The notes under the pieces are model-generated. The model saw only the letters and a list, made by a program, of their open reading frames with translations. It made no database searches and was not told the origin of the DNA. Of a stretch of DNA of 39,012 bases, positions 3,238-34,025 are shown one piece after another (position 1 is the first letter of the stretch; the number at the start of each line of letters is the position of its first letter). Source of the DNA: a virus; the IMG/VR virus record IMGVR_UViG_3300025652_000187, positions 1 through 39,012 of that record. The stretch is one strand, 5' to 3'. Both the position numbers and the translations under genes were made by a program.

Positions 3238-3771
3238 ATGAAAAGTAAAGTGTGGCTATTAATCGTTATTATTTGTTTTGTCGTCTCAGGAATAGCTGAA
3301 GTAAGGGCTTGCACCTTATACACCACTGAACAACAACATTCAATAGAGAGGGCGTATATAAAAGGGTTGCCCCACGACCTGGGCTACACCTTGGCCTCTA
3401 TTGTTATACAAGAGAGTTTTGTTGGTTCCTATATCGTCAGAGTTAACAGCAAGGATGGTGAGTACGGAAGCTACGGTATAACACATATAGAGCTTAGAAC
3501 AGCTATGTGGCTGGAAGGTTACGAGAGTTCTTGGAGGGCTAAGCAAGACCTAGTGCCTAAGCTAATAAGTGATGACGACTATGCAATGGATTTAGCTATA
3601 ACTAAACTACTTAAGAATAAAAGTAAGGGTTGGTTACGTATGTGGAGTAGCTATAATGGCAGGGGGAGTAAAGCCCTGGAGTACGGTAACAAGATAAAGG
3701 GTCATATAGCTATACTAAAAGAATGTTACTCCTCAGAGTATAGGTTCTTAGATAGAGGAAGTTGGTATTAG
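3238..3771 (+). CDS. Exported lytic transglycosylase-like lysozyme (177 aa)
   Basis: The N-terminus has a lysine start and a 16-residue hydrophobic core ending near EVRA-C25, a Sec signal peptide or signal anchor. From residue 50, the order ASIVIQES (E59-S60), GEYGSYGITHI and later WSSYNGRG follows the SLT/goose-lysozyme pattern: catalytic Glu followed by Ser, then an S-x-G-x-x-Q/H-I stretch, then YNG. The role is cleavage of peptidoglycan in the periplasm. Its place in the early arm, about 28 kb from the holin/spanin genes, is like some myoviruses that keep the endolysin apart from the lysis cassette. It could instead be an exported hydrolase used at another stage. The family call rests on motifs only. 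Confidence 0.6.
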   Translation: MKSKVWLLIVIICFVVSGIAEVRACTLYTTEQQHSIERAYIKGLPHDLGYTLASIVIQESFVGSYIVRVNSKDGEYGSYGITHIELRTAMWLEGYESSWRAKQDLVPKLISDDDYAMDLAITKLLKNKSKGWLRMWSSYNGRGSKALEYGNKIKGHIAILKECYSSEYRFLDRGSWY

Positions 3772-5002: not shown

Positions 5003-6199
5003 ATGTTCGAACAGAATCAAATACTGTATAAAGTTAGCGCATCAACACAAAAGGTTCAAACTTGGAAAGGTTGGCTAGTAGATAATGAAGTCTGTGTAGC
5101 ATACGGGCAAGAAGGTGGTAAGATGCAAGTTAGCATGTACGATGCCGAACCAAAGAATATAGGTAAGGTTAATGAGACTACAGCAAACGAGCAAGCAGTA
5201 GTAGAGCTACAAGCACTCTACCAAGCTCAGATAGACAACTGCCACTACCACCTAACGCGTGATGCAGCAGTGTCCTCTAAGGCTATAATTCCTCGTAAAA
5301 TTAAGAATTACAAAGACCATTGGAAAAGTATGTCAAGTACACTGCTATCTAGTACAAAGAAGAATGGTAGTAGGGCTTGTGTTATTAGTGGGGTGTTGTA
5401 TAGTAAAATAGGCAAAGAAGAGGAAGTTAAGGTTGAGCATCTTAGAAATGCTCTATGTGCCTTAAAAGAAGTTGCAACATTTGATGCTGAAGTATATGCA
5501 CATGGTCTATCTTTGCAGCGCATAAGAAGCGCTTGGCTTAAGCCTGTTAAGACAGCTAAAGAGGTAGCTAAGATTAAGGCAGAGTATTTAAACAAAACAG
5601 GTAAAGATTTACCCTACGACCCTAACGAAGACGCCCTTAGATTAAAGTTCCACATATTTGATGTTCCTGTAGAAGGTTTGCCATTCAACGAGCGTATAAA
5701 GTTAATGCGTACACTTGAGAATCACATTAAGATAGCTAAATTATCAGACTGTTTTGAGTTTATTTACCCAGGATTGACAATGAATGGATCTCAACGTCTA
5801 TTATTACGAGACAAAGTAGTTGCACAAGGTTATGAAGGTATGGTACACTACGAGCCAAAGGGTGTTTATGAGTTTGGTGTACGGTCTTCAAACACGCAGA
5901 AGGATAAGCCGCGGTATGACTCTGAAGCATTAGTTCTTGGTATTGAGAGATGTAAGAATGGTGATGGTAAACTTATGTTAATGGCTTGTGATGAGCTTGA
6001 CAACGTAGAGTTTAAGACTATGATGAAGGTTGATCGGAGAGATGGTATAAAGTATCCGCGAGATATGGAAAGTATGCGGGAGATGATTGGTAAGTGGATT
6101 ACCTTCTCTTATGAAGAACTTAGTGATAAAGGTATTCCAACTAAGCCTGTCGGAGAAGAGGTGAGGAAGTGTGATAGTTTTGGAAACCCATTAGAATAG
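5003..6199 (+). CDS. ATP-dependent DNA ligase with WGR-like N-terminus (398 aa)
   Basis: It seals nicks in DNA by transferring AMP to its active-site lysine and then to the 5' phosphate. Nucleotidyltransferase motifs are in order: motif I KKNGSR (K119), motif III FDAEVY (E163), motif IIIa FHIFDV, motif IV EGMV (E278), motif V KDK (K300, K302). Residues 1-75 (LYKVSASTQKVQTWKGWLV and on) look like a WGR-type domain fused upstream. The ATG at 5003 is chosen because GAGGAG at 4991-4996 is six bases away; the ATG at 4982 has no SD. Its last 10 codons reappear as a relic at 8713-8742. Confidence 0.85.
   Translation: MFEQNQILYKVSASTQKVQTWKGWLVDNEVCVAYGQEGGKMQVSMYDAEPKNIGKVNETTANEQAVVELQALYQAQIDNCHYHLTRDAAVSSKAIIPRKIKNYKDHWKSMSSTLLSSTKKNGSRACVISGVLYSKIGKEEEVKVEHLRNALCALKEVATFDAEVYAHGLSLQRIRSAWLKPVKTAKEVAKIKAEYLNKTGKDLPYDPNEDALRLKFHIFDVPVEGLPFNERIKLMRTLENHIKIAKLSDCFEFIYPGLTMNGSQRLLLRDKVVAQGYEGMVHYEPKGVYEFGVRSSNTQKDKPRYDSEALVLGIERCKNGDGKLMLMACDELDNVEFKTMMKVDRRDGIKYPRDMESMREMIGKWITFSYEELSDKGIPTKPVGEEVRKCDSFGNPLE
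6170..6199 (+). repeat. Direct repeat, copy 1: 3' end of the ligase gene
   Basis: These 30 bases encode the last nine ligase residues (CDSFGNPLE) and its TAG stop. An exact copy lies at 8713-8742. The preceding three codons also encode VRK in both copies but with different codons, so the second copy came from a diverged ligase gene and not from a fresh duplication. Confidence 0.9.
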
Positions 6200-6220: not shown

Positions 6221-6252
6221 TTGTAACGTGACTGTAACTTTTGTGTTATAGT
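6221..6252 (+). promoter_or_regulatory. Extended -10 promoter for the two-gene cassette
   Basis: TATAGT at 6247-6252 is preceded by TG at 6244-6245. The -35 region is weak (TTGTAA at 6221-6226 is too far, TAACGT at 6224-6229 fits spacing only). It lies between the ligase stop and the gene starting at 6283, inside the segment bounded by the ligase-tail repeats. The cassette may therefore bring its own promoter. Confidence 0.5.
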
Positions 6253-6282
6253 TCCTATACATACTCAAGAGGAGCAGTTATT

Positions 6283-8286
6283 ATGAATTTTATAAACCTT
6301 AAAGAAGCAGTACAGTCTCAGTTTGACACAATGGTAGGAAATGAACTATTCTACATAAAAACTGATAAAGACGTTATTTGGAACCTGTACCTAGACAGCT
6401 TTCCAGAAGGGACTAACAATATTTACAGAGAGAGGCGGGAATTCGACTGTAACTGTTGTAAGCAGTTTATACGTAGCTGTGGAAACGTGGTATCTATTGT
6501 TAATGGTGAGTTAGTTTCTATCTGGGACATAGACGTAGGTGGCCACTTTCAAGTAGTTGCTAACGCTCTATCTACCTTTGTTAAAGAACAAGCCATAGAC
6601 AATATTTATCGCAGTGATACTAGAGTACTAGGAACAGACCGAAGCCATCAACAAACAGATGACGGGGTTATCAAGTGGGATCACTTCTATTATAAATTAC
6701 CAAGCAAGTTCGTTAGTACTGAGGTTGGGTCTTTTAAAGGCATTGCTACCGCAAACAAAGAGATTCTTCAACGTAGTTTAGAGGAGATCTCAACAGAATC
6801 TATTGAAATCGTGTTAGAGTTAATTGCACAAAACTCCCTATATCGTGGCGAAGAACATAAAAAGACCGTCCAAGCCTTGAAAAAAGCTAAGAAAGGGTGT
6901 GAGTCAAAATCAGGCAAAGACAAAGATCTGTACTTGTGGTATACTTCTGCTAACTTGAAAGAGGCTGGACGATTTAAGAACACCGTGATAGGGACTCTTC
7001 TGGTAGATATATCTTCAGGTGTTGAGTTAGAAGCTGCTGTTAGAATGTTTGAATCTAAGGTTGCTCCTCAGAACTATAAACGCTCTAGTGCACTGATTAC
7101 TCAAGGAATGATTAAGAAAGCAGAGCAAAAGGTAGCTGAACTTGGTATCGAAGATGCTTTATACCGTCGTTATGCAGTGACTGAGGACGTTACAATTAAT
7201 AACGTATTGTTCGCAGACAGGTCAGCTAAGAAAGCCATGGGAGTATTCGACCAACTAGGGGAGACTGTCAAGGACAGTAAACCAAACCTAGATAAAATAG
7301 AAGAAGTTGGTATCAAAGATTTCATTCACAACATACTACCCAAGGCTAACACTCTTGAGTTAATGGTTGAGAACTCTCATATTAATAACTTTACGAGCTT
7401 GATTTCACCAATAAACAAAGACGCTAAACCTATCCTAAAATGGGGCAACAACTTCTCTTGGTCTTATAACGGCGAAGTCGCAGACTCAATGAAAGAACGA
7501 GTTAAGAAGGCTGGGGGTAATGTGGACGGTGTTTTGCGGTTCTCAATCCAGTGGAATGATGGTGACAACAACCAAAATGATTTTGATGCCCACTGTATTG
7601 AACCAAAAGGAAACCTAATTAGTTTTAATAATAAAGGTCGAAGGCAAGCCTCTTCAGGTATGCTAGACGTAGATGTCGTAAGCCCAAAAGGAAACGTAGC
7701 TGTTGAGAATATCATCTACACAGATAAAAACAAAATGCCTAATGGTGATTATGAGTTCTTGGTTCACAATTTCTCCCATAATGGTGGTATGACTGGATTT
7801 ACGGCTGAAATTGAGTACGAAGGAAAAGTATACTCTTACACTTATGATAGGAACCTAAAAAACAGGGAAAGAGTTTCAGTTGCTAAAATCAACTTTAGTA
7901 AAGAGAGAGGTATGAGGTTTATTAGTTCACTCCCGTCAACAGAATCCACTAAGGAGGTTTGGGGCATTAGTACCAATAAGTGGCAAAAGGTGTCTATGTT
8001 AATGAATTCCCCTAATCACTGGGATGGTAATGAAACTGGGAATAAGCACTGGTTCTTTATACTCCAAGGTTGTGTTAATCCAGACAAGGCTAGAGGGTTT
8101 TATAACGAGTTTTTAACTAACGATCTACTGGAGCATCGTAAAGTGTTCGAGGTACTGGGATCTAAGCTTAAGGTAGGGGAATCAAACAACCAATTAAGCG
8201 GGTTAGGGTTTTCTTCCACACAGAACAACCACGTACTTTGCAAGGTTAGTGGTAATTTTAATCGAGTAATAAAAATCAACTTTTAA
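6283..8286 (+). CDS. Large conserved phage protein with YfaP/DUF2135-like domain (667 aa)
   Basis: The ATG at 6283 follows AGAGGAG with good spacing; the in-frame start at 6241 has no SD. The N-terminal part has a CNCC cluster near residue 57. The middle is helical and lysine-rich. From about residue 410, RFSIQWNDGDNNQNDFDAHC, then an EPKGNLISFNNK stretch, LDVDVVSPKG and ENIIYTD, resembles the YfaP/DUF2135 beta-sandwich (D-x-D plus P-x-G pattern), possibly metal-binding. From memory, proteins of this kind occur in many large phages next to a partner like the one at 8301. The role is unknown; virion or host-takeover functions are both possible. With its neighbour it sits between copies of the ligase tail. 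Confidence 0.75.
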   Translation: MNFINLKEAVQSQFDTMVGNELFYIKTDKDVIWNLYLDSFPEGTNNIYRERREFDCNCCKQFIRSCGNVVSIVNGELVSIWDIDVGGHFQVVANALSTFVKEQAIDNIYRSDTRVLGTDRSHQQTDDGVIKWDHFYYKLPSKFVSTEVGSFKGIATANKEILQRSLEEISTESIEIVLELIAQNSLYRGEEHKKTVQALKKAKKGCESKSGKDKDLYLWYTSANLKEAGRFKNTVIGTLLVDISSGVELEAAVRMFESKVAPQNYKRSSALITQGMIKKAEQKVAELGIEDALYRRYAVTEDVTINNVLFADRSAKKAMGVFDQLGETVKDSKPNLDKIEEVGIKDFIHNILPKANTLELMVENSHINNFTSLISPINKDAKPILKWGNNFSWSYNGEVADSMKERVKKAGGNVDGVLRFSIQWNDGDNNQNDFDAHCIEPKGNLISFNNKGRRQASSGMLDVDVVSPKGNVAVENIIYTDKNKMPNGDYEFLVHNFSHNGGMTGFTAEIEYEGKVYSYTYDRNLKNRERVSVAKINFSKERGMRFISSLPSTESTKEVWGISTNKWQKVSMLMNSPNHWDGNETGNKHWFFILQGCVNPDKARGFYNEFLTNDLLEHRKVFEVLGSKLKVGESNNQLSGLGFSSTQNNHVLCKVSGNFNRVIKINF

Positions 8287-8300
8287 CTAGGAGAATAATA

Positions 8301-8699
8301 ATGAATATGTTTGAATATGCAACAAAGAATAAGGTACGTTTCACTTTAGTTGAGGGATCAGCAGGATTATCTGTTGAAGACCTTTGGGACTTGAAACTAA
8401 CCTCAGGTCGAGTATCCCTAAACGGGTTAGCTAAAGCGATAAATAAGAAGCTTAAAGAAGATACTGAAGAGAGTTTTGTCGTTAAACAAACTGCCACCAA
8501 TACCTTAACTAAACTTAAGTTTGATATTGTTAAGTACATAATAGATATACGACTAGCTGAGCAAGAAGCTAGTAAAAAAGCTGTTGAGACTAAAGCCTAC
8601 AAAGAGAAACTAATGGGTATCTTGGCCTCTAAGAAAGACGAAGCCCTTGAAGGTAAGTCAGTTGAAGAGTTAGAAGCCCTTCTTTCAAGCGTTGGTTAA
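8301..8699 (+). CDS. Conserved phage protein, partner of the 667-aa protein (132 aa)
   Basis: It has a good SD (CTAGGAG) 14 nt after the previous gene. The N-terminal motif KVRFTLVEGSAGLSVEDLWD is one I associate with a family of small phage and prophage proteins (V-R-F then S-V-E-D-L-W-D-L). The C-terminal half is a charged helix ending in DEALEGKSVEELEALLSSVG. No enzyme motif is visible. It is co-transcribed with the 667-aa gene and belongs to the same inserted unit. Function unknown. Confidence 0.75.
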   Translation: MNMFEYATKNKVRFTLVEGSAGLSVEDLWDLKLTSGRVSLNGLAKAINKKLKEDTEESFVVKQTATNTLTKLKFDIVKYIIDIRLAEQEASKKAVETKAYKEKLMGILASKKDEALEGKSVEELEALLSSVG

Positions 8700-8712
8700 T
8701 ACAGTTAGAAAA

Positions 8713-8742
8713 TGTGATAGTTTTGGAAACCCATTAGAATAG
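8713..8742 (+). repeat. Direct repeat, copy 2: relic of a ligase 3' end
   Basis: This is an exact 30-base copy of 6170-6199. It is untranslated: the upstream gene stops at 8699 and no start codon opens this frame. The preceding GTT AGA AAA encodes VRK synonymously with GTG AGG AAG in the intact ligase. It marks the right edge of the inserted two-gene segment. Confidence 0.85.
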
Positions 8743-8751
8743 GAGAACATT

Positions 8752-8928
8752 GTGGATAATCTCAAAAGTACGGTCAGCAATAAAGACACCCATGGAAAGG
8801 TTAGCCCATTCCCGTTTACAAACCTTAAGAAGTTATTACATGGGGTTCGTAAAGGAGAGTTATTAATTATTGCCAGTGGTAGCGGTGGTAGGAGCACATT
8901 TGGCACTGAACCACTCGAAACCAAATAG
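8752..8928 (+). CDS. Truncated P-loop helicase fragment (58 aa), likely degenerate
   Basis: A GTG start at 8752 follows TAGGAGAA, whose TAG is the relic ligase stop. The frame FTNLKKLLHGVRKGELLIIA then GSGGRSTF strongly resembles the entry into the RecA core of DnaB/T7 gp4-type helicases, where GLRKGEL precedes the Walker A loop. Here the loop is one residue short and its lysine is arginine. The frame then ends after GTEPLETK. The intact replicative helicase is at 10752. It may be a decaying pseudogene or a short protein still made, since the SD is intact. Confidence 0.55.
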   Translation: MDNLKSTVSNKDTHGKVSPFPFTNLKKLLHGVRKGELLIIASGSGGRSTFGTEPLETK

Positions 8929-8943
8929 CCATAAGGAGACACT

Positions 8944-9285
8944 ATGAGAAGTATTACCGAGGTGAACCCAAGTTCTGAGGTATTGATAGATTTACTTGAA
9001 GAACTTAACTCATTAGAAGACGATACAAGGGTTGGTGTATGCTTCTCACTTGTGGACTACACATGGGGTAAGTCACTTAAAGTTAATCTAGGAACATTGT
9101 GGGACTCCGAAAACGATGAAAGGGAGCAACTAACTGACCGAGAATACGAGGAGGACGATTACGAGTGTTTAGTGAGTTATGTTAGAAGTGGGTTGTTAGA
9201 GTTATCAGCTCATTTGAACCAACTGGCTACTGTCTTAGTAGCTGTAGAAAGCAAACCGCCAGAGGAGAGTATATTATGCAAGTAA
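8944..9285 (+). CDS. Acidic hypothetical protein (113 aa)
   Basis: The SD ATAAGGAG is followed by ATG at 8944. The protein is acidic, with an EDDTRVGVCFSLVDYTWGKS segment, a cluster of Asp/Glu near residues 55-75, and a helical C-terminus (SYVRSGLLELSAHLNQLATV). No domain recognised. It overlaps the next small gene by 10 nt, so translation is coupled. It belongs to a run of tiny ORFs between ligase and the primase-helicase. Confidence 0.7.
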   Translation: MRSITEVNPSSEVLIDLLEELNSLEDDTRVGVCFSLVDYTWGKSLKVNLGTLWDSENDEREQLTDREYEEDDYECLVSYVRSGLLELSAHLNQLATVLVAVESKPPEESILCK

Positions 9286-9434
9286 ATTATGATTTAAACG
9301 ATATTGTAGATGCACTTGAGAATAATGAAGTGGACTCTAATGAGGTATGCTATGAACCGACTTTTAATGCACTAACTAAACTGATTAAGGCTGCCGATAA
9401 AGCCTCCGACATTATATACGGGAGTAATAAATGA
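9276..9434 (+). CDS. Small hypothetical protein (52 aa)
   Basis: AGAGGAG at 9261-9267 precedes the ATG at 9276. The product MQVNYDLNDIVDALENNEVD... is acidic and helical. Its C-terminal FNALTKLIKAADKASDIIYG is similar in pattern to NNVIKALTKAAELWG in the 75-aa protein at 23419-23646, which could mark a shared small family. It overlaps the genes on both sides (10 and 4 nt). Confidence 0.65.
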   Translation: MQVNYDLNDIVDALENNEVDSNEVCYEPTFNALTKLIKAADKASDIIYGSNK

Positions 9435-9592
9435 GAAACTGGGATAAACTTAAAGAAAAAACTAAACAATTAGAGGATTTGTTGCAGACTGATAGCGATC
9501 TTCTACCAACACTTGGTCAACAAGAGGAAGCAGAGGATCTACTAGAGGAGCTTAGGGAAATTGTAGAGGCCATTTTGGTTGGAGATAAGTGA
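9431..9592 (+). CDS. Small acidic helical protein (53 aa)
   Basis: The ATGA overlap with the previous stop (9431-9434) and a GGGAG SD just upstream support this start. The product is rich in Leu, Glu and Asp and can form a single amphipathic or coiled-coil helix (KLKEKTKQLEDLLQ, then AEDLLEELREIVEAILVG). No family recognised. Its stop overlaps the next ATG. Confidence 0.65.
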   Translation: MRNWDKLKEKTKQLEDLLQTDSDLLPTLGQQEEAEDLLEELREIVEAILVGDK

Positions 9593-9747
9593 TGAAGTTG
9601 TTGATTATTTTGCTGAGTTTACTCCTTTGCTCTTGCTCAGTTGTACAAGTAAGGGGCTCAGTTGGTGTATCTAGTTGCTGTAGCACTATGCACGTATTGA
9701 ACGTAAGGTCACAACAAACATATTACTATGGAAGTGGGTGTTTATGA
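9592..9747 (+). CDS. Small predicted lipoprotein (51 aa)
   Basis: The ATG at 9592 shares its A with the previous TGA. The N-terminus MKLLIILLSLLLCSC ends in a lipobox (L-C-S-C15), so the mature protein of about 37 residues is probably lipid-anchored. It holds three more cysteines (two adjacent near residue 29) and a YYYGSGC end. Phage lipoproteins of this size can act in superinfection exclusion or as o-spanins; a real o-spanin exists at 31983. The role is unassigned. It overlaps the next gene by 4 nt. Confidence 0.6.
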   Translation: MKLLIILLSLLLCSCSVVQVRGSVGVSSCCSTMHVLNVRSQQTYYYGSGCL

Positions 9748-9887
9748 GGGTACTAGTAGCTTGCGAATATTCAGGGCGTGTACGTGACGCTTTTACTAAA
9801 TTAGGGCATGATGCGGTTAGTTGCGATTTACTGCCGAGCGATTCACCTGGAGGTCAGCACTATCAAGGTGACGTTTCGATATTATAG
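9744..9887 (+). CDS. 5' part of a frameshifted DNA-methyltransferase-like gene (47 aa)
   Basis: The ATG at 9744 overlaps the previous TGA. MRVLVACEYSGRVRDAF is the N-terminal strand and SAM-loop-like start of a phage protein family related to cytosine methyltransferases. GHDAVSCDLLPSD follows, as expected. The frame then hits TAG at 9885-9887, while the family sequence continues in the frame one base back (D-I-I-D-D-G-F-D-L). One base seems lost in the T-run at 9874-9876. On its own this 47-residue piece would not be active. Confidence 0.6.
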   Translation: MRVLVACEYSGRVRDAFTKLGHDAVSCDLLPSDSPGGQHYQGDVSIL

Positions 9888-18505: not shown

Positions 18506-18940
18506 TTGGAAACAATTACATTAAGAAATATAGGACTGGATGAAGAGGACTTCTACCACTTGATCGGAGGGTACTTTGCCGTTGACGGTAATAATGTTGG
18601 TATTGTTCACCAAGACTTACCAACCTTTGAGGAGTACACCACGGATGCAGGGAGAGTTGAGAGGTGGACAAGCAGTAAGAATCAGATGATGGTCACTACA
18701 GATGCCATTAAGCTTAATAATGGGTTCTATAATGTCCACACCAAGGATTTGATCTTTAGGGTGGTGAGGGAGTACTACGCTGTAGAGCACATAACTCTCA
18801 CCGAGGAACAGTTCACTGCCTTTAAAGAAGCTGTTGACAACCCGAAACCACTTAATCAAAAGATGAAAGACGCTATAGCGTACCATGATTCGGTTATTAC
18901 TATAAACGACACACCAGAAGAGGATACTACTATTGGATAA
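18506..18940 (+). CDS. Hypothetical protein (144 aa)
   Basis: TTG start after AGGAGGTGA. The protein is acidic, with an LRNIGLDEEDFYHLIGGYFA start and alternating strands and helices; no domain is recognised. It overlaps the following metallophosphoesterase gene by 8 nt. Function unknown. Confidence 0.7.
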   Translation: METITLRNIGLDEEDFYHLIGGYFAVDGNNVGIVHQDLPTFEEYTTDAGRVERWTSSKNQMMVTTDAIKLNNGFYNVHTKDLIFRVVREYYAVEHITLTEEQFTAFKEAVDNPKPLNQKMKDAIAYHDSVITINDTPEEDTTIG

Positions 18941-27669: not shown

Positions 27670-27717
27670 TCAAATATCTTCCTCCCGCTCACCCAAACAA
27701 CCTGAAAATATATGCAT
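27670..27717 (-). pseudogene. Relic of an adhesin gene start (15 codons)
   Basis: One base after the stop of the upstream fibre gene lies ATG, reading MHIFSGCLGEREEDI then TGA. The start of the SPRY-like gene at 31981 reads MHIFSGCMGGELLPAF and also begins one base after a stop. About 30 bases match with three differences. The rest of the gene is gone here. It marks a removed or exchanged adhesin. Confidence 0.55.
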
Positions 27718-27718
27718 A
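27685..27718 (-). repeat. Adhesin-locus direct repeat A, copy 1
   Basis: This covers the start region TATGCATATATTTTC and the GGTTGT and TGGGTG that follow, with two single-base differences inside. Copy 2 is at 31949-31982. Both are in the same orientation and bound the segment containing the SPRY-like, G8 and small fibre genes, so recombination between them could delete or swap that whole block. Confidence 0.7.
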
Positions 27719-28168
27719 TTATGATCCGTTCTTTATGAAGTCCCACGTATTATTACCGGCGTATATAAGCTGACCAGTTTGTCCTGCATCAGGTAAGTCT
27801 AATCCACTAGCTGCTGGGTTAACTGTCACTCCTGCTGCCCCAGCCACTGTGACAACACCATCTCCTGCTCTACGTAGCACTATAGAGTCACCTAGTGTCC
27901 AAGGGATGTCGTCAGTATGTGGTACAGTTAGTGCTATAGCAGCCGCGTTTGTGAACCTAATATACCCACTCTTATCAGACAGGAGTAGAGTCCTTGCAGT
28001 GGTGGATTCTTCTAGTATGTTGACATTAAATGGATTTCCACCATTCAGGGCTGCTATTAGAACATCAGCAGATATTCTTTTATCAATACCTCCTTGAGAG
28101 ATGTGTATAAAGTCGCTACTGTTTATTGCCGTAGCAGCAGGTAATTGATCTATTCTTTTATCGGCCAT
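27719..28168 (-). CDS. Small tail-fibre-like protein with anchor motif (149 aa)
   Basis: The start MADKRIDQLPAATAINSSDF matches the pattern of the fibre at 33360-34025 (MTKQISELPATPGLVTTDL), a short N-terminal element likely used to dock to the virion. The rest is beta-rich (TLLLSDKSGYIRFTNAAAIA, then SIVLRRAGDGVVTVAG) and ends in ntWDFIKNGS, as in phage collar/fibre proteins. It probably is a short fibre or adaptor for the adjacent G8 protein. The bases around its ATG recur at 31231-31250. Confidence 0.65.
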   Translation of the reverse strand: MADKRIDQLPAATAINSSDFIHISQGGIDKRISADVLIAALNGGNPFNVNILEESTTARTLLLSDKSGYIRFTNAAAIALTVPHTDDIPWTLGDSIVLRRAGDGVVTVAGAAGVTVNPAASGLDLPDAGQTGQLIYAGNNTWDFIKNGS

Positions 28169-28241
28169 TATTGTTTCTCTATTCTGTTATTGGCTAAACC
28201 TAGTGCGCTGTACACCAGATTTTCTAGGTTCAGTGGAGTAT

Positions 28242-31127
28242 CTACTGAACAGTGACGGTGACTGTGGCCGGTGTAAAGTTACCAAAATAGTCAGTAACCC
28301 AGTACTTAAAAGTATCAACACCGATAAAATCAAAGTCTGGGTGATAAGTAACTGTTCCGTCCTTATTGTCGTATACTCGACCATTTGTCGGTTGGGTAAT
28401 ACCGTCAACTACAATCACATCAAAATCAGCATCAGAGTCATTAACTAGTAAGTCAACCACCACCTCAGTCTCTAACGTAGTAGTGATAGCATCATCAACG
28501 GCAATAGGCGCAACACTGTTTAGGTCAATAACGCCTTTATCAACTGCATCTCTGTAGGCGAAGAAAGGGCTACCTAATTGAACACTATCATCAATTTCAG
28601 CAACCGTCCCATACTTGTGAATCTCACCTGTCACACGATCACTGTAATAATCCTCAAGGATAAAGTACCTCTTCCCATCAGCCGCGGTGTAGTACCCGTC
28701 AGTTTCTAAGATTCTAACTATCTCTGACGATTTAGCACTATTGAGGTCATCACCTGCTGGAATCTCAATAACACCCAAGCTATCGGTTTTAGTCCCCTCC
28801 ATAGGTAATACCCTAGCGGTCGGGTCGCTATTAAGTCCTTCTTTGTAATTTAAGAAACTAGTAATGTTAAGCTCAAAACGAGCATCAACAATCCCATCAC
28901 CAGATAAGACTTGGTAAGCATCATTCACTTCCATATATTCTTGATCAACACTAGTCATTGTTGGGTTCACTACAAATATCCGCTTATACCTGTCGGCAGG
29001 AAGTCCAGGTGAATTGAATACATCCGTGATACGGAAACCATAAGCAAATCCATTAATTTTAGCATTGACAATGGTTACGTCACTTGCATTAGTGCCTACG
29101 TCGATACCTTTGTCAGGGTTAGAGTATTGAGCTGAGGGCCTACCGATCACATCAAAGTTTAACAATAGATAATGTGCCGTGTATGAGATATGGCCCCCGT
29201 TAATTACATTCCAAGCTGTAAAGTCCTTCAACACAGACCGAACATCATGTCCCTGATGTGCGTTTCTTTTCTCAACAAAAACTCCAAGCTTAGATGCAAA
29301 TGTTTCATTGTCGGAGAAGTGCAGGATAGGGACATCATCAACCGTGACTGATGAAGATAAGCCCACAGCCTCTGGTAAATCAAAGAAGGAAGAGTCAATT
29401 GGAATCACACCGTCTAAACCATTTTCTGGATCTTCAGCGCGGCCACGATGAAAATAAGCAAACCCGCTATTAACACTCGCTGCAATATTATTTCTAGCTT
29501 TCACCATACGACCTTCGAAATAAAAACCACTCCCGCTTCTACCGTTATCTAGTTCTGATGGGACGTTACAACATGATTTAGGTGTTCCCCAACCCATACC
29601 TTCAGCGTAGATTGCTATATTATTACTCCAACTACCAATTTCGTTACCTGTTTCAGCAACAAAACCAGAACCAAAAGTTTTATATGATGCGTTGTTATGG
29701 AGAATTGCGTTACCATCGTGATGGACATAACCCCAACCTGGAGAGCCAAACACAGCGTTACCAATAGCGATTGCTGGGTTACGTATATCTTCAAGACCTG
29801 GGCGGTGGAAGTGCATAGAGTAGCGACCCTTGACATTACTGTCTGGCATAATTGGGTCAAACTCATGGGGATTTTTAGCTGATATTGATTTATTCGTTCT
29901 ACCTAACTCTTTAAACTCAACGTAACGTACATCCACGTCGTCGTTGTGCATAAACATCATGTGACCACGGTGGTGTATCTGAGTAGATGCACCATTTTCA
30001 CTTTCAATAGATATGTTGCGTGTATGGTTTGCCACTGAAGTTTTTAAATCAGCCCTTGGTGTTCCATGGTCATACTGCAAGGCACTAGAGAACGTTACGA
30101 CATTACCGTTCACTTGCGTTATGGTTAACACCTCATCTTGAGGGGGTTGTGGAGAGGTCTGTACACCATCCCATCTGTGTCCATCATATATTGTCCCTGC
30201 TAAAACGATTGTATCTCCGACTTGCCAGTTTTGTGGTGCAAAAGCTAACGTTATCGAGTTATCGCCTATTTTGGGGTCAATAAGAACTTTCAAGTGGGTC
30301 GTCTTTTCTTGACCATGCATTCTTGTTGGGCCATGAGCAATTAAGCTACGACTGACTAAAGTTGTATCCCAAGTAGTATCAATATCACCGTTATCAGCAA
30401 TGATAAGATCAACGTTAACACCACTTTGTATTGGGTTTTCTTCTGTTCCGATAAGCAAAGTGCCAGTGGTATCCACAAACATAGTATCGAAAATCATCTT
30501 GGAGTCCACATCAGGAGAGAAAGTTAATACACCGTTAACAAGAACCAGAAATAAACGTGCATCAGAAACATTATCATAAGTGACAGTGATACCATCTTTA
30601 ATTAATACTTGTGCATTATCTCCAGGTACTTCACCCTCAGCCCAAGTGTTTGTATCAAACCAAGAGCCGTTATTGGTAGCTTGGTGTGTTACACTCTCAA
30701 GCAAAAATAAACTCAATACAGCAGCATGTTCATCATGCTTAGCAGTTCCAGAAGTATGTGGATTAGTTGGGTCCGGTGTTGGTGTAGGATCTGGGGTTGC
30801 AACAGGCGTTGGTGTCGGGGATGGTGTTGAAACAGGGTTTAATAGATAGTCGCAATGCTTACGCCATTGTGATGGGTTGCCAAAAACCGCACTATTGCAA
30901 GCAATAGAGTCATCCACTTGTAGGTAGAAGTAGTTATTACCAGACCCGTAGCGAACTAATGAGGGAGCAGGGACAATACAGACTTGCTCACCGCGTGAAC
31001 AGAAAACCCAATCCTCTTCAGGGGGAGTGGTCTGGGCATATGAGACACTAGTAACGGCAAGAATTGAAAAAGGAAGTAGCCAATAAAGGGCTTTGTTTAA
31101 AAATTGTCTGGTTCGGGGAGCTATCAT
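28242..31127 (-). CDS. Secreted-type G8/beta-helix protein with C-terminal Ig/cadherin-like domain (961 aa)
   Basis: A bacterial-style Sec signal peptide covers residues 1-31 (basic start, hydrophobic core LLPFSILAVTSV, cleavage at SYA-Q). A PTPTPVATPDPTPTPDPT linker lies near residues 103-122. A G8 domain follows (NGSWFDTNTWAEGEVPGDNA). From about residue 330 to 700 is a right-handed beta-helix as in CEMIP/TMEM2-type proteins, with many H and N residues (HHRGHMMFMHNDD, SMHFHRPG). Residues about 873-961 form a cadherin/Big_9-like fold (VAPIAVDDAI, VNDSDADFD, GTVTYHPD). It probably acts on or binds an extracellular polysaccharide. Signal peptides are not needed for virion proteins, so it looks acquired from a bacterium. 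Confidence 0.8.
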   Translation of the reverse strand: MIAPRTRQFLNKALYWLLPFSILAVTSVSYAQTTPPEEDWVFCSRGEQVCIVPAPSLVRYGSGNNYFYLQVDDSIACNSAVFGNPSQWRKHCDYLLNPVSTPSPTPTPVATPDPTPTPDPTNPHTSGTAKHDEHAAVLSLFLLESVTHQATNNGSWFDTNTWAEGEVPGDNAQVLIKDGITVTYDNVSDARLFLVLVNGVLTFSPDVDSKMIFDTMFVDTTGTLLIGTEENPIQSGVNVDLIIADNGDIDTTWDTTLVSRSLIAHGPTRMHGQEKTTHLKVLIDPKIGDNSITLAFAPQNWQVGDTIVLAGTIYDGHRWDGVQTSPQPPQDEVLTITQVNGNVVTFSSALQYDHGTPRADLKTSVANHTRNISIESENGASTQIHHRGHMMFMHNDDVDVRYVEFKELGRTNKSISAKNPHEFDPIMPDSNVKGRYSMHFHRPGLEDIRNPAIAIGNAVFGSPGWGYVHHDGNAILHNNASYKTFGSGFVAETGNEIGSWSNNIAIYAEGMGWGTPKSCCNVPSELDNGRSGSGFYFEGRMVKARNNIAASVNSGFAYFHRGRAEDPENGLDGVIPIDSSFFDLPEAVGLSSSVTVDDVPILHFSDNETFASKLGVFVEKRNAHQGHDVRSVLKDFTAWNVINGGHISYTAHYLLLNFDVIGRPSAQYSNPDKGIDVGTNASDVTIVNAKINGFAYGFRITDVFNSPGLPADRYKRIFVVNPTMTSVDQEYMEVNDAYQVLSGDGIVDARFELNITSFLNYKEGLNSDPTARVLPMEGTKTDSLGVIEIPAGDDLNSAKSSEIVRILETDGYYTAADGKRYFILEDYYSDRVTGEIHKYGTVAEIDDSVQLGSPFFAYRDAVDKGVIDLNSVAPIAVDDAITTTLETEVVVDLLVNDSDADFDVIVVDGITQPTNGRVYDNKDGTVTYHPDFDFIGVDTFKYWVTDYFGNFTPATVTVTVQ

Positions 31128-31230
31128 GGATATAAGTTTCCGTGTGTTTGGTAATAAACTAGGTATCTATATTAATAGCGAGCTGTTAACAGGCTACCTG
31201 ATCTCGGGTCTTAGGTGGTGTTTAGTTACC

Positions 31231-31250
31231 GGCCATTGTTGTTTCTCTTG
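31231..31250 (-). repeat. Adhesin-locus repeat B: relic of a fibre gene start
   Basis: On the minus strand AGAGAAACAACA is followed by ATG GCC GGT AAC TAA (31236 down to 31222). The same SD-start context (AGAGAAACAATAATGGCC) opens the fibre gene at 28168; 19 of 20 bases match across 31231-31250 and 28163-28182. Only four codons survive here. It lies in the gap between the G8 gene and the SPRY-like gene. The rest of that gap (31128-31312) shows no gene. Confidence 0.6.
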
Positions 31251-31312
31251 TTATGTTCCATTATATCCAGCAGGTATAGCGTAGTTAACTAGTGGGTCTT
31301 GCCAAGGTACAC

Positions 31313-31981
31313 TTAAGAAAATCCGGTAGGAGGCCCATATTGCCAACTCCCAGGCTGAGTTAGTGTTACCCGCCTTTTACCAAGCTCTGCTGTTTGTGCC
31401 ATGCTAACTGCAATATAGTATTCACTGTTATTATTCACAAAATTACCAGGAGCTTTCATGTTGTAACCACCCGTCCCAGTAGAGGGGTCGCCACCAAAAT
31501 GGCCACCCCAATTTTCATTTACCCCGAACCACACCCAATCAATGCTAGTATCTATTGCTATTTTAATAACGTCACCAGCTACTATGACGTTGGGTGGGAA
31601 TATTTGCCAACCAGTACCACCGTTTGGTTGAAAATCAGCCCTGTTTACGAACGCCCACCTGGACGTGTAAAGATCGGAGTGGGTTCCAGAAGGCGTACTT
31701 AGAGCATCCAAAGAAGGTAAGTAACCATGAATCCCAAAATAGACATATTGCTCCGTAGAGGGTGGTGATGTTATTAAATTAAGATCCACTTTCATTTCAA
31801 AGTAGTACTTACCTGTAGGTATCTTACCTGAGCTTCTAAGCCTTCCTAAATTAGTAGCCGAAGAAGCCTCTACAGTGGTTCCATTATTAGTTAAAGAGTA
31901 ACCAGTTGCCACAGAAGTTGGTACTAGCCTTCGGAATGCTGGAAGCAATTCCCCACCCATACAACCAGAAAATATATGCAT
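31313..31981 (-). CDS. SPRY-like adhesin (222 aa)
   Basis: ATG at 31981 lies one base after the o-spanin stop, suggesting coupled translation; the upstream start at 32074 would run through the o-spanin gene. GKYYFEMKVDL, then QYVYFGIHGYLPS, GDVIKIAIDTSIDWVWFGVN and a final YYIAVSMAQTAE form the strand order of SPRY/B30.2-like lectin folds used by phage fibres. It probably binds a host surface sugar or protein. The start is duplicated at 27717. Confidence 0.65.
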   Translation of the reverse strand: MHIFSGCMGGELLPAFRRLVPTSVATGYSLTNNGTTVEASSATNLGRLRSSGKIPTGKYYFEMKVDLNLITSPPSTEQYVYFGIHGYLPSLDALSTPSGTHSDLYTSRWAFVNRADFQPNGGTGWQIFPPNVIVAGDVIKIAIDTSIDWVWFGVNENWGGHFGGDPSTGTGGYNMKAPGNFVNNNSEYYIAVSMAQTAELGKRRVTLTQPGSWQYGPPTGFS

Positions 31982-31982
31982 A
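31949..31982 (-). repeat. Adhesin-locus direct repeat A, copy 2
   Basis: This is the 5' end of the SPRY-like gene and the base before it. It matches 27685-27718 over TATGCATATATTTTC, GGTTGT and TGGGTG with a few substitutions. The intact gene follows here, whereas copy 1 is truncated. Confidence 0.7.
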
Positions 31983-32294
31983 CTAATTAACCCTGTCTTC
32001 CTGTTTATCGTTATACCACTCAACCCAGCTATTATGCATGTAAAAGCACTCCTTGAACCTGTTATGGTTCTCAATGTTAGTTTTGGCCAGTGCCTCCATG
32101 GTTGGTGCTTCTATTCCAACCTCTTCCTCACATAGTCCTAAGAACCCTGGAGGAGTGTATTGTTCTATCAGTTTTATCTTTTCCCGTATAACTTCAACTT
32201 GCTCAGGGAGTGGGGTTTGAATAGAGTTGCTTGTACAACTGGTAATAGCTATCACTAAGGTCAGTGCAAGTAGTGGTTTTGTTAAGGGCTTCAT
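31983..32294 (-). CDS. Outer-membrane spanin lipoprotein (103 aa)
   Basis: MKPLTKPLLALTLVIAITSC ends in lipobox I-T-S-C20, so it is lipid-anchored to the outer membrane. A proline-containing periplasmic segment follows. It starts inside the 3' end of the i-spanin gene (92-nt overlap), the classic two-gene spanin arrangement. With the i-spanin it would fuse inner and outer membranes at the last stage of lysis. Confidence 0.75.
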   Translation of the reverse strand: MKPLTKPLLALTLVIAITSCTSNSIQTPLPEQVEVIREKIKLIEQYTPPGFLGLCEEEVGIEAPTMEALAKTNIENHNRFKECFYMHNSWVEWYNDKQEDRVN

Positions 32295-32574
32295 CTAATG
32301 CTTCCTGTAGGGATATTTTGCTTTTATTTATGTCATTGTACTTCTGGTCTAGTTGCCTGATCTTCTCCATACCTTTCTGCTGCACTTCCATAGCAGCTTG
32401 AAGTTCTTCATTAGCCCTGGTAAGCGACTCTTCAAGCTTTATGTCGAAGGCTGTCTTGTACTTTAGCTCCATCTCTGAAGTGGCTGAAGAGTGGCCGACA
32501 TTATACGTGTAATAATAAGAGTAGGAGAAGAGGGCGGCTATTACGAGATAACCGTAATATTTTAATGGTATCAT
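32203..32574 (-). CDS. Inner-membrane spanin (123 aa)
   Basis: An N-terminal helix (YYGYLVIAALFSYSYYYTYN) anchors it in the inner membrane. Residues 35-105 are a long coiled coil (LEESLTRANEELQAAMEVQQ). The C-terminus reaches the o-spanin. It overlaps the holin candidate by 1 nt and the o-spanin by 92 nt. The pair confirms a Gram-negative host. Confidence 0.75.
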   Translation of the reverse strand: MIPLKYYGYLVIAALFSYSYYYTYNVGHSSATSEMELKYKTAFDIKLEESLTRANEELQAAMEVQQKGMEKIRQLDQKYNDINKSKISLQEALDEALNKTTTCTDLSDSYYQLYKQLYSNPTP

Positions 32575-32843: not shown

Positions 32844-33360
32844 TTTCTCGCCTACCTTCTGATTTAAGTTGGCCCTTGATTAAACTCAGGTCGTTGCTTA
32901 GTTGTCTCATTATATCTGATAACTGATTCAACCCTGTCCAAACTTCCCTTGTTATCTCTGTTGCAGTCTCTTTCAACTCCTTGTTTATGTCCTTGGTGAC
33001 TTCCCTCACCTCTCGTTCCAATAGTTTCAAACTATCTTCTATAGGGCGTACACGATCCGTTAGTAGAGACTTAACCTCTTCCTTTGTAATCTGCTGGTGT
33101 TCAAGGTATCTTACCCTTTTTTCAATATCCTTGTACTCCTCTTGGATACTCTTTATCCTGTCCTCTGCCCTAGCCTCAAGTTCAGATAAAGATTTCTCAG
33201 AGCCCTTATGCACATTCTCAATTGCATCTGAAAATAGTTGTCGCTCCTCTTTTACTTGCTTTTCTCGCCTATTTACATTAAATATAACATAAGTCAAAAG
33301 TAGACCTATTACACTCGCTATAACACTTACATATGCCAGCACTACTGATTGAACATCCAT
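32836..33360 (-). CDS. Membrane-anchored coiled-coil protein (174 aa)
   Basis: Residues 5-27 (VVLAYVSVIASVIGLLLTYV) form one membrane helix; the remainder is a long charged coiled coil (EKSLSELEARAEDRIKSIQE, then REVREVTKDINKELKETATE). It lies between the gp53-like fibre and the holin candidate. It may be a lysis regulator, antiholin or second spanin-like component; none of these is shown by motif. It overlaps both neighbours by 1-8 nt. Confidence 0.6.
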   Translation of the reverse strand: MDVQSVVLAYVSVIASVIGLLLTYVIFNVNRREKQVKEERQLFSDAIENVHKGSEKSLSELEARAEDRIKSIQEEYKDIEKRVRYLEHQQITKEEVKSLLTDRVRPIEDSLKLLEREVREVTKDINKELKETATEITREVWTGLNQLSDIMRQLSNDLSLIKGQLKSEGRREND

Positions 33361-34025
33361 TAATATTTCCCTATGGCTATCCAGTTTGCTCTGACAGTAT
33401 CCGAACCAGAACGGCTAGTTCTTATTGTACTGGCTTTGAATTGACTTAAACTGACATACCATGGGCGTACATCAAGTTCGACATTAAAATAAGGTGTCGA
33501 ATTACCTGTAGCACCACTCCAACCATCCCTCTTGCACTGCGGGGTTACTATTAGTATAGGCTCATTGGCATTGGTAAGTCCACTAGCAAATGCTACCGGA
33601 AATGTAGTAACAATATCCCTACTCTCAGTGTAGTAATCAGTTACACCAAACTGTATCATTATACGATTTAAGCCAAATATGAAGGTGGGGAACTGTATAT
33701 AGTTTTTAGATGATGTTGTGAGTACACTAGATGTAAATGTACCATTAGGTAGCCTAGCATTAGGTGTTGTTCCACTAGCCAGATTACTAGCGTTAACGAA
33801 GTAGTCTGAGCTATTTCCTTGAAGAAAGTTTGCATTCAATCCGCTAGAGTTTGTGTCTAAAGTTTGCACCATAGCCATAATATCGGCAGCAGTTATGCCG
33901 CTCCTTATGAGGGTTCCTAATTGGTCTATAGTTGCCCTGTAGTCTGTAGTACCTTGCTTAGTAGCTATTAGATCAGTAGTTACCAATCCTGGTGTTGCTG
34001 GTAATTCACTTATTTGCTTAGTCAC
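33360..34025 (-). CDS. Tail fibre with gp53-like C-terminus (221 aa)
   Basis: The N-terminus MTKQISELPATPGLVTTDLI is an anchor-like motif shared with the protein at 27719. The middle has SGLNANFLQGNSSDYFVNAS and ARLPNGTF, typical fibre repeats. The C-terminus (IQFPTFIFGLNRIMIQFGVT, then TTFPVAFASGLTNANEPI, final WIAIGKY) matches the gp53-like receptor-binding domain of phage fibres. It probably binds the host cell surface. Confidence 0.75.
   Translation of the reverse strand: MTKQISELPATPGLVTTDLIATKQGTTDYRATIDQLGTLIRSGITAADIMAMVQTLDTNSSGLNANFLQGNSSDYFVNASNLASGTTPNARLPNGTFTSSVLTTSSKNYIQFPTFIFGLNRIMIQFGVTDYYTESRDIVTTFPVAFASGLTNANEPILIVTPQCKRDGWSGATGNSTPYFNVELDVRPWYVSLSQFKASTIRTSRSGSDTVRANWIAIGKY

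Follow-up and report, generated by a model that had tools for sequence, protein, structure and literature searches.

The 39-kb virus record analysed here over its full 39,012 nucleotides, hereafter the window, encodes a DnaB-type helicase, a family A DNA polymerase, ThyX, DNA ligase, NT5C, and baseplate hub and wedge proteins; no capsid or terminase gene was found among the window ORFs examined. The nearest named relative is the seawater Pseudomonas phage vB_PsaM_M1, whose DNA polymerase shares 43% identity with the one encoded here. That phage, an 89-kb myovirus of the Ounavirinae (Felix-O1-like), has its early and late arms in the convergent arrangement also seen in the window. The window represents part of the genome of a marine Felix-O1-like myovirus. 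In the direction of transcription, its late arm runs from the baseplate genes through an anchor-type fibre (33360-34025), a membrane coiled-coil ORF, a small membrane ORF, two overlapping spanin-like ORFs, and an adhesin-like ORF to the gene studied here, which encodes a G8/beta-helix protein and is followed by a short fibre and a DUF7338-like ORF (Table 1). The sequence-only reading had placed this gene between a SPRY-like adhesin and a fibre; the fibre is borne out by PHROG tail-fibre and virion families, whereas the upstream ORF has no Pfam match, hence none to SPRY. The two fibres are related at the N-terminus (motif KxIxxLPA..., E value 2e-5), and neither this anchor motif nor any other late protein tested resembles the G8 protein. 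Genes in this arm are tightly packed, and the 185-nt gap preceding the G8 gene (31128-31312) is long by comparison. No RNA structure beyond that of shuffles was detected in this leader, and no terminator was found for the gene.

Table 1. Features of the G8 gene and its surroundings, in the direction of transcription (positions in the window)
Feature	Position	Strand	Basis
Putative inner-membrane spanin-like ORF (TM + coiled region)	32203..32574	(-)	Sequence and position
Putative outer-membrane spanin-like lipoprotein ORF (AITSC lipobox-like), overlapping the ORF above	31983..32294	(-)	Sequence and position
Start of upstream adhesin-like gene (MHIFSGCMG)	31954..31985	(-)	29/32 identity to 27690-27721
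Upstream adhesin-like ORF ("SPRY-like" label unsupported)	31313..31981	(-)	ORF; one weak PHROG, function unknown
Promoter-like site TTAACT-17-TATAAT (sigma-70-like, 10/12), suggestive only	31260..31288	(-)	Window total equals that of shuffles
Apparent vestigial fibre-gene start (RBS + ATGGCCGGTAACTAA), upstream of G8 gene	31226..31248	(-)	21/23 identity to 28158-28180
Whole gene, G8/beta-helix protein (intact 961-aa ORF, ATG at 31127)	28242..31127	(-)	ORF list, Pfam, AlphaFold model, PDB structure match
Predicted Sec-type signal peptide, residues 1-31, cleavage between SYA and QT	31035..31127	(-)	Sequence features; N-termini of gammaproteobacterial homologues
Orphan four-cysteine segment (C43, C50, C77, C92), residues 35-97	30837..31025	(-)	Sequence; pLDDT <50
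Pro/Thr linker, residues 98-125	30753..30836	(-)	Composition, 68% Pro+Thr
G8 domain, residues 161-278	30294..30647	(-)	Pfam PF10162, 1.7e-16
Right-handed beta-helix and following strands, residues 279-870	28518..30293	(-)	PF24606, model, conservation, TMEM2 alignment
Big_9/cadherin-like domain, residues 873-961	28245..28511	(-)	Pfam
RBS and start of intact downstream fibre gene	28158..28180	(-)	One copy of first repeat
Short tail fibre with N-terminal anchor motif, 149 aa, downstream	27719..28168	(-)	PHROG tail-fibre/virion families
Apparent vestigial second start (MHIFSGCLGEREEDI, then stop), just after fibre gene	27690..27721	(-)	Repeat copy of 31954-31985

The order of signal peptide, Pro-Thr linker, G8 domain, beta-helix, and cadherin-like end proposed from the letters alone was confirmed by Pfam, composition, and N-terminal features. 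Residues 1-31 (MIAPRTRQFLNKALYWLLPFSILAVTSVSYA, with cleavage before QT) combine a net charge of +3, the hydrophobic core ALYWLLPFSILAV, and an AXA-type site, as in Sec signal peptides; this assignment was judged from sequence features, not by a trained predictor, and such an N-terminus is rare among the window genes. Four of the protein's six cysteines fall within the segment that follows, which has no confident homologue and gave no match in phages or in 16 homologue genomes, its weak matches lying in Cupriavidus (E value 0.007) and Glaciecola (E value 0.8) plasmids. The HMM search for G8/CEMIP profiles that the sequence-only reading had called for gave 60.7 bits for G8 (cut-off, 22.9) and, on residues 432-560, a CEMIP_beta-hel match (PF24606, 3.7e-06) of 27.3 bits, exactly at the cut-off, compared with 39.2 bits for one bacterial homologue (L034). 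Residues R387/H389, R435-Y436..H439.H441, H470, and E492/E496 of the beta-helix are invariant in the family, and the C-terminal region matches Big_9 (5.5e-16), Cadherin_5 (1.6e-15), and also Cadherin_4. No PHROG family was matched by the protein, and a PDB search by its single sequence gave no meaningful match. Of 138 family-conserved positions, 133 are retained, which argues for a working protein.

An AlphaFold2 model built from 48 sequences had a pLDDT of 83.6 and a pTM of 0.83, with residues 1-125 below a pLDDT of 50. Its top structural match in the PDB was the human TMEM2 ectodomain (8c6i; E value 3.8e-16), the next being at 4.4e-8, and tailspikes and capsule lyases ranked behind TMEM2 at 4e-8 or weaker. 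TMEM2 was also recovered by sequence with the family profile (1.6e-6), and its GHIMIM and GRYPVHFH stretches align with family-invariant residues. The claim of a G8 protein thus survived structure prediction, the model containing the G8 fold and being closer to TMEM2 than to any tailspike. As modelled, the fold is of the human TMEM2/CEMIP type: as in TMEM2 (CEMIP2) and CEMIP, the G8 domain opens a right-handed beta-helix that carries GHxMxM and RYPVHFH-type motifs. The phage protein differs from TMEM2 in lacking its lectin-like domains, one of which is inserted in the helix; TMEM2 chain residues 160-336 are unmatched in the profile alignment, and no lectin-like Pfam match was obtained on the phage protein. 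Absent with the insert are R265/D273/D286, as borne by the CEMIP/TMEM2 hyaluronidases proper, and the TMEM2 residues reported to affect activity sit in this inserted domain (PMC10206443). The same study found no measurable hyaluronidase activity of the TMEM2 ectodomain, and the hyaluronan activity of TMEM2 is disputed (PMC10206443). With the domain missing and TMEM2 itself inactive in that study, there are no grounds for transferring a hyaluronan substrate or catalysis to the phage protein, and any link to hyaluronan was not upheld, the sugar-binding lectin-like domain of TMEM2 being absent here.

Searches for similar proteins in viruses returned little. By tblastn against 50,697 phage records, the G8 protein matched no named phage or other entry, and a single-protein scan of viral contigs recovered only a near-identical contig, 3300006920_000267. 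This second IMG/VR contig agrees with the window over 8,727 bases (one mismatch, 99.99% identity) and encodes G8 protein residues 1-280 next to the same phage genes, a matching junction that makes a chimera very unlikely. A profile search of viral contigs gave only two remote IMG/VR contigs (L093 and L094), with 26% identity over part of the query and a G8-like stretch below the Pfam G8 cut-off. The L093 protein (6833-9766, 977 aa) has a weak G8-like start without a signal peptide, follows a collagen-like fibre, and has a relative annotated as a tail fibre in Curvibacter phage PCA1; it is possibly a virion version of the G8 fold. Homologues without signal peptides in many phages, which would have spoken against the sequence-only reading, were not found. 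No G8 protein was present in vB_PsaM_M1 and 11 other phage records related by the wedge gene, several of which are fragments; in these related phages, the genes downstream of the wedge gene include fibre or spike genes that encode no signal peptide. The G8 gene, absent from the related phages examined, resembles in this respect a phage moron (an acquired cargo gene). A literature search on the G8 domain in phages gave 12 hits, none of them a paper on phage G8 proteins. Already known are the G8 protein family in bacteria, the fold in animals, and phage depolymerases; no other phage protein combining a G8 domain and an export signal at a fibre-cassette site turned up in the phage records, viral contigs, and literature searched, save on the near-identical contig of the same phage.

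A scan of bacterial genomes yielded 153 confirmed relatives, and the best 80 of these came from marine Rhodobacteraceae, Parvularculaceae, Marinicella, Teredinibacter, Microbulbifer, Gilvimarinus, and cyanobacteria. The distribution is patchy, with G8 genes in 8 of 58 relatives of Teredinibacter. Teredinibacter waterburyi carries two tandem G8/beta-helix genes (L025, 531-7460), both approximately 45-47% identical to the phage protein. The proteins of marine Rhodobacteraceae and Gammaproteobacteria are 38-53% identical to it over its last ~840 residues, 53% being the closest homologue. Secreted G8 proteins of T. waterburyi, Marinicella, Microbulbifer, Gilvimarinus, and a Ruegeria plasmid (WP_260026581.1) share with it the G8 domain, CEMIP-type helix, and Big_9, the last found at the C-terminal end of the relatives scanned, in the same plan as in the phage protein. 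Most gammaproteobacterial relatives begin with a Sec signal or lipobox, and several have a Ser- or Pro/Thr-rich linker before G8; some alphaproteobacterial ones carry RTX repeats, pointing to type I secretion, unlike the predicted Sec signal of the phage protein. The bacterial proteins differ further in being bacterially encoded, often beside exopolysaccharide (EPS) genes, and in giving no match to the four-cysteine segment. EPS or capsule genes adjoin 9 of the 14 homologue loci inspected, a convenience sample biased by six loci from plasmids. The neighbours comprise glycosyltransferases, CpsD, sulfotransferases, O-antigen ligase, and an export protein in L003-L008, Wza-like, Wzz/kinase, and CpsB proteins in L028, and a flippase and glycosyltransferases in L019 and L026; in the other five loci (L013, L015, L027, L029, and L034), no EPS gene was present among the neighbours tested.

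A phylogenetic tree places the phage protein with 11 alphaproteobacterial sequences (SH-aLRT 94), next to 13 from Gammaproteobacteria (99); the branch of the phage protein is long, at 0.67. The GC content of the gene (42.4%) and its overall codon distance are ordinary for the phage; its codon distance to the late arm is 0.19 against a sampling-null maximum of 0.07, and the wedge gene, which has no null of its own, lies at 0.12. The long branch and phage-like composition indicate that capture was not recent or that the true donor is unsampled. Of the alternatives offered by the sequence-only reading, recent capture or export, the former was rejected, given the 53% identity of the closest homologue, the branch length, the phage-like GC, and the near-phage codon use; a bacterial origin stands, as does export as the likeliest fate.

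Two direct-repeat pairs flank the G8 gene, and neither occurs in shuffled windows (0). A copy of the RBS and start of the downstream fibre gene lies past the SPRY-like ORF and ahead of the G8 gene, leading into a four-codon dead end, ATG GCC GGT AAC TAA, and the start of the upstream adhesin-like gene recurs after the fibre gene as a 15-codon dead end. We infer that these boundary repeats are what remains of former gene starts, a pattern expected at a site of exchange between fibre and adhesin cassettes. The first could partly reflect a common RBS-start sequence, and we place more weight on the second, as the first is short, contains the RBS, and has a similar generic MADK fibre start in an unrelated phage (viral contig L120). 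The best reading of the G8 gene is that of an acquired secreted bacterial protein at a cassette site. In the early arm, a 39-nt direct repeat (92%; 6161-6199 and 8704-8742) located at gene ends flanks the genes at 6241-8286 (phrog_1735) and 8301-8699; its resemblance to the G8-gene boundary repeats suggests a similar cassette insertion.

Altogether, the results favour the view that the G8 protein is an exported polysaccharide-processing or polysaccharide-binding protein that would act outside the cell or at lysis, to which we assign a probability of roughly 55%. Export by the infected host is likely, judging from the sequence features and the export signals of the bacterial kin, while the link to polysaccharide is drawn from the fold and the gene neighbourhood of these kin. 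An exported beta-helix protein can act on the polymer of its EPS cluster, as exemplified by the Pantoea stewartii glycosidase WceF, which has a tailspike fold and an export signal and is encoded in an EPS cluster (PMC7949094). Catalysis by the G8 protein is a guess, supported by its conserved His, Arg, and acidic residues. We envisage that a cassette encoding a secreted bacterial G8/beta-helix protein was taken up into the fibre/lysis arm of this marine Felix-O1-like myovirus; synthesized late, the protein would be exported by Sec to the periplasm, its four N-terminal cysteines would be oxidised there, and it would be released via host secretion or at lysis, the spanin-like genes lying just upstream. 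Outside, the beta-helix groove would bind and cut, or otherwise remodel, host exopolysaccharide or capsule, and the matrix around the dying cell would be loosened, allowing progeny to escape the debris and reach neighbouring cells. The probable export, the secreted bacterial kin, and the TMEM2/CEMIP-type fold hint that the virus loosens or alters the host sugar coat from the outside, beyond what the tail alone does. More tentatively, the protein may be a G8/CEMIP-type enzyme exported by the host via Sec before lysis, opening the matrix as a shared good for progeny, i.e., a non-virion depolymerase encoded in a tail-fibre cassette locus.

The chief rival to export, which we consider unlikely, is a virion tailspike whose beta-helix would serve as an adsorption depolymerase, the N-terminal hydrophobic/cysteine segment being a leftover or an unusual attachment module. 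The gene does lie in the fibre arm beside a fibre, where spikes are expected, yet the protein lacks the anchor motif common to the two fibres of this phage. Residues 1-125, with their low pLDDT, could serve virion binding, but they comprise an export-type N-terminus, four cysteines, and a Pro/Thr linker. A right-handed beta-helix is present and phage tailspikes are the second-best structural matches, although TMEM2 is a far better one than any of them. Finally, the remote G8-like phage proteins (that of L093 and the PCA1 tail fibre) have no signal peptide, as far as the former shows, whereas the homologues of the G8 protein are secreted, non-phage proteins.

If exported, the protein might instead be a non-enzyme, a binder coating or cross-linking the sugar layer for superinfection exclusion or for keeping progeny off debris; this, too, appears improbable. 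Strongly conserved His/Arg/Glu/Asp positions in the helix suit an active or metal site, but catalytic residues are not assignable in the protein. By general knowledge, beta-helix proteins of such type are mostly enzymes (compare PMC10206443), but the TMEM2 ectodomain, as noted above, lacks measurable hyaluronidase activity, and WceF aggregates with its polymer (PMC7949094). That the gene is a passenger, i.e., a bacterial gene misassembled onto a phage contig or a non-functional insertion, is highly improbable and already largely refuted: the gene is found in no other named phage, but the identical phage junction recurs on the second contig, GC and codon use are those of the phage or nearly so, the frame is intact with its conserved positions retained, and vestiges of phage gene starts lie on both sides.

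Phages are usually seen as attacking capsule and biofilm with spikes, either borne on the virion or released in free form. If true, export of a bacterial-type protein would be a second phage route against capsule and biofilm, and phages would then acquire whole secreted matrix proteins including the export signal, unlike the GH32 enzymes of Bacillus phages SP10, phiNIT1, and SPG24 (PMC4595243). The latter are likewise phage-borne, host-type enzymes for extracellular polysaccharide, of another fold and without the signal peptide present in the G8 protein. Tailspike depolymerases such as LKA1 gp49 and those of Klebsiella phages share the right-handed beta-helix and the gene's place in the tail-fibre arm, and differ in being virion-anchored and in lacking an export signal, a G8 domain, and a cadherin-like end. 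WceF shares the right-handed beta-helix and an export signal, together with its tie to an EPS cluster, and differs in being exported by Tat rather than Sec, in being bacterial rather than phage-borne, and in its tailspike fold and trimer (PMC7949094). The G8 protein also offers a handle on the function of the widespread, poorly characterised bacterial G8 proteins in EPS clusters and on why the active site of their human relatives is so hard to find.

Two other ORFs of the window were observed. A 144-aa ORF (18506-18940, plus strand) gave a sub-threshold match to the TacA1 antitoxin (18.2 bits; cut-off, 21). In the early arm, a 177-aa ORF (3238-3771, plus strand; phrog_600, function unknown) has an N-terminus, MKSKVWLLIVIICFVVSGIAEVRAC, that strongly resembles a signal peptide or signal anchor; from the transglycosylase-like appearance of its GYTLASIVIQES stretch, the product may be an exported or SAR-type endolysin.
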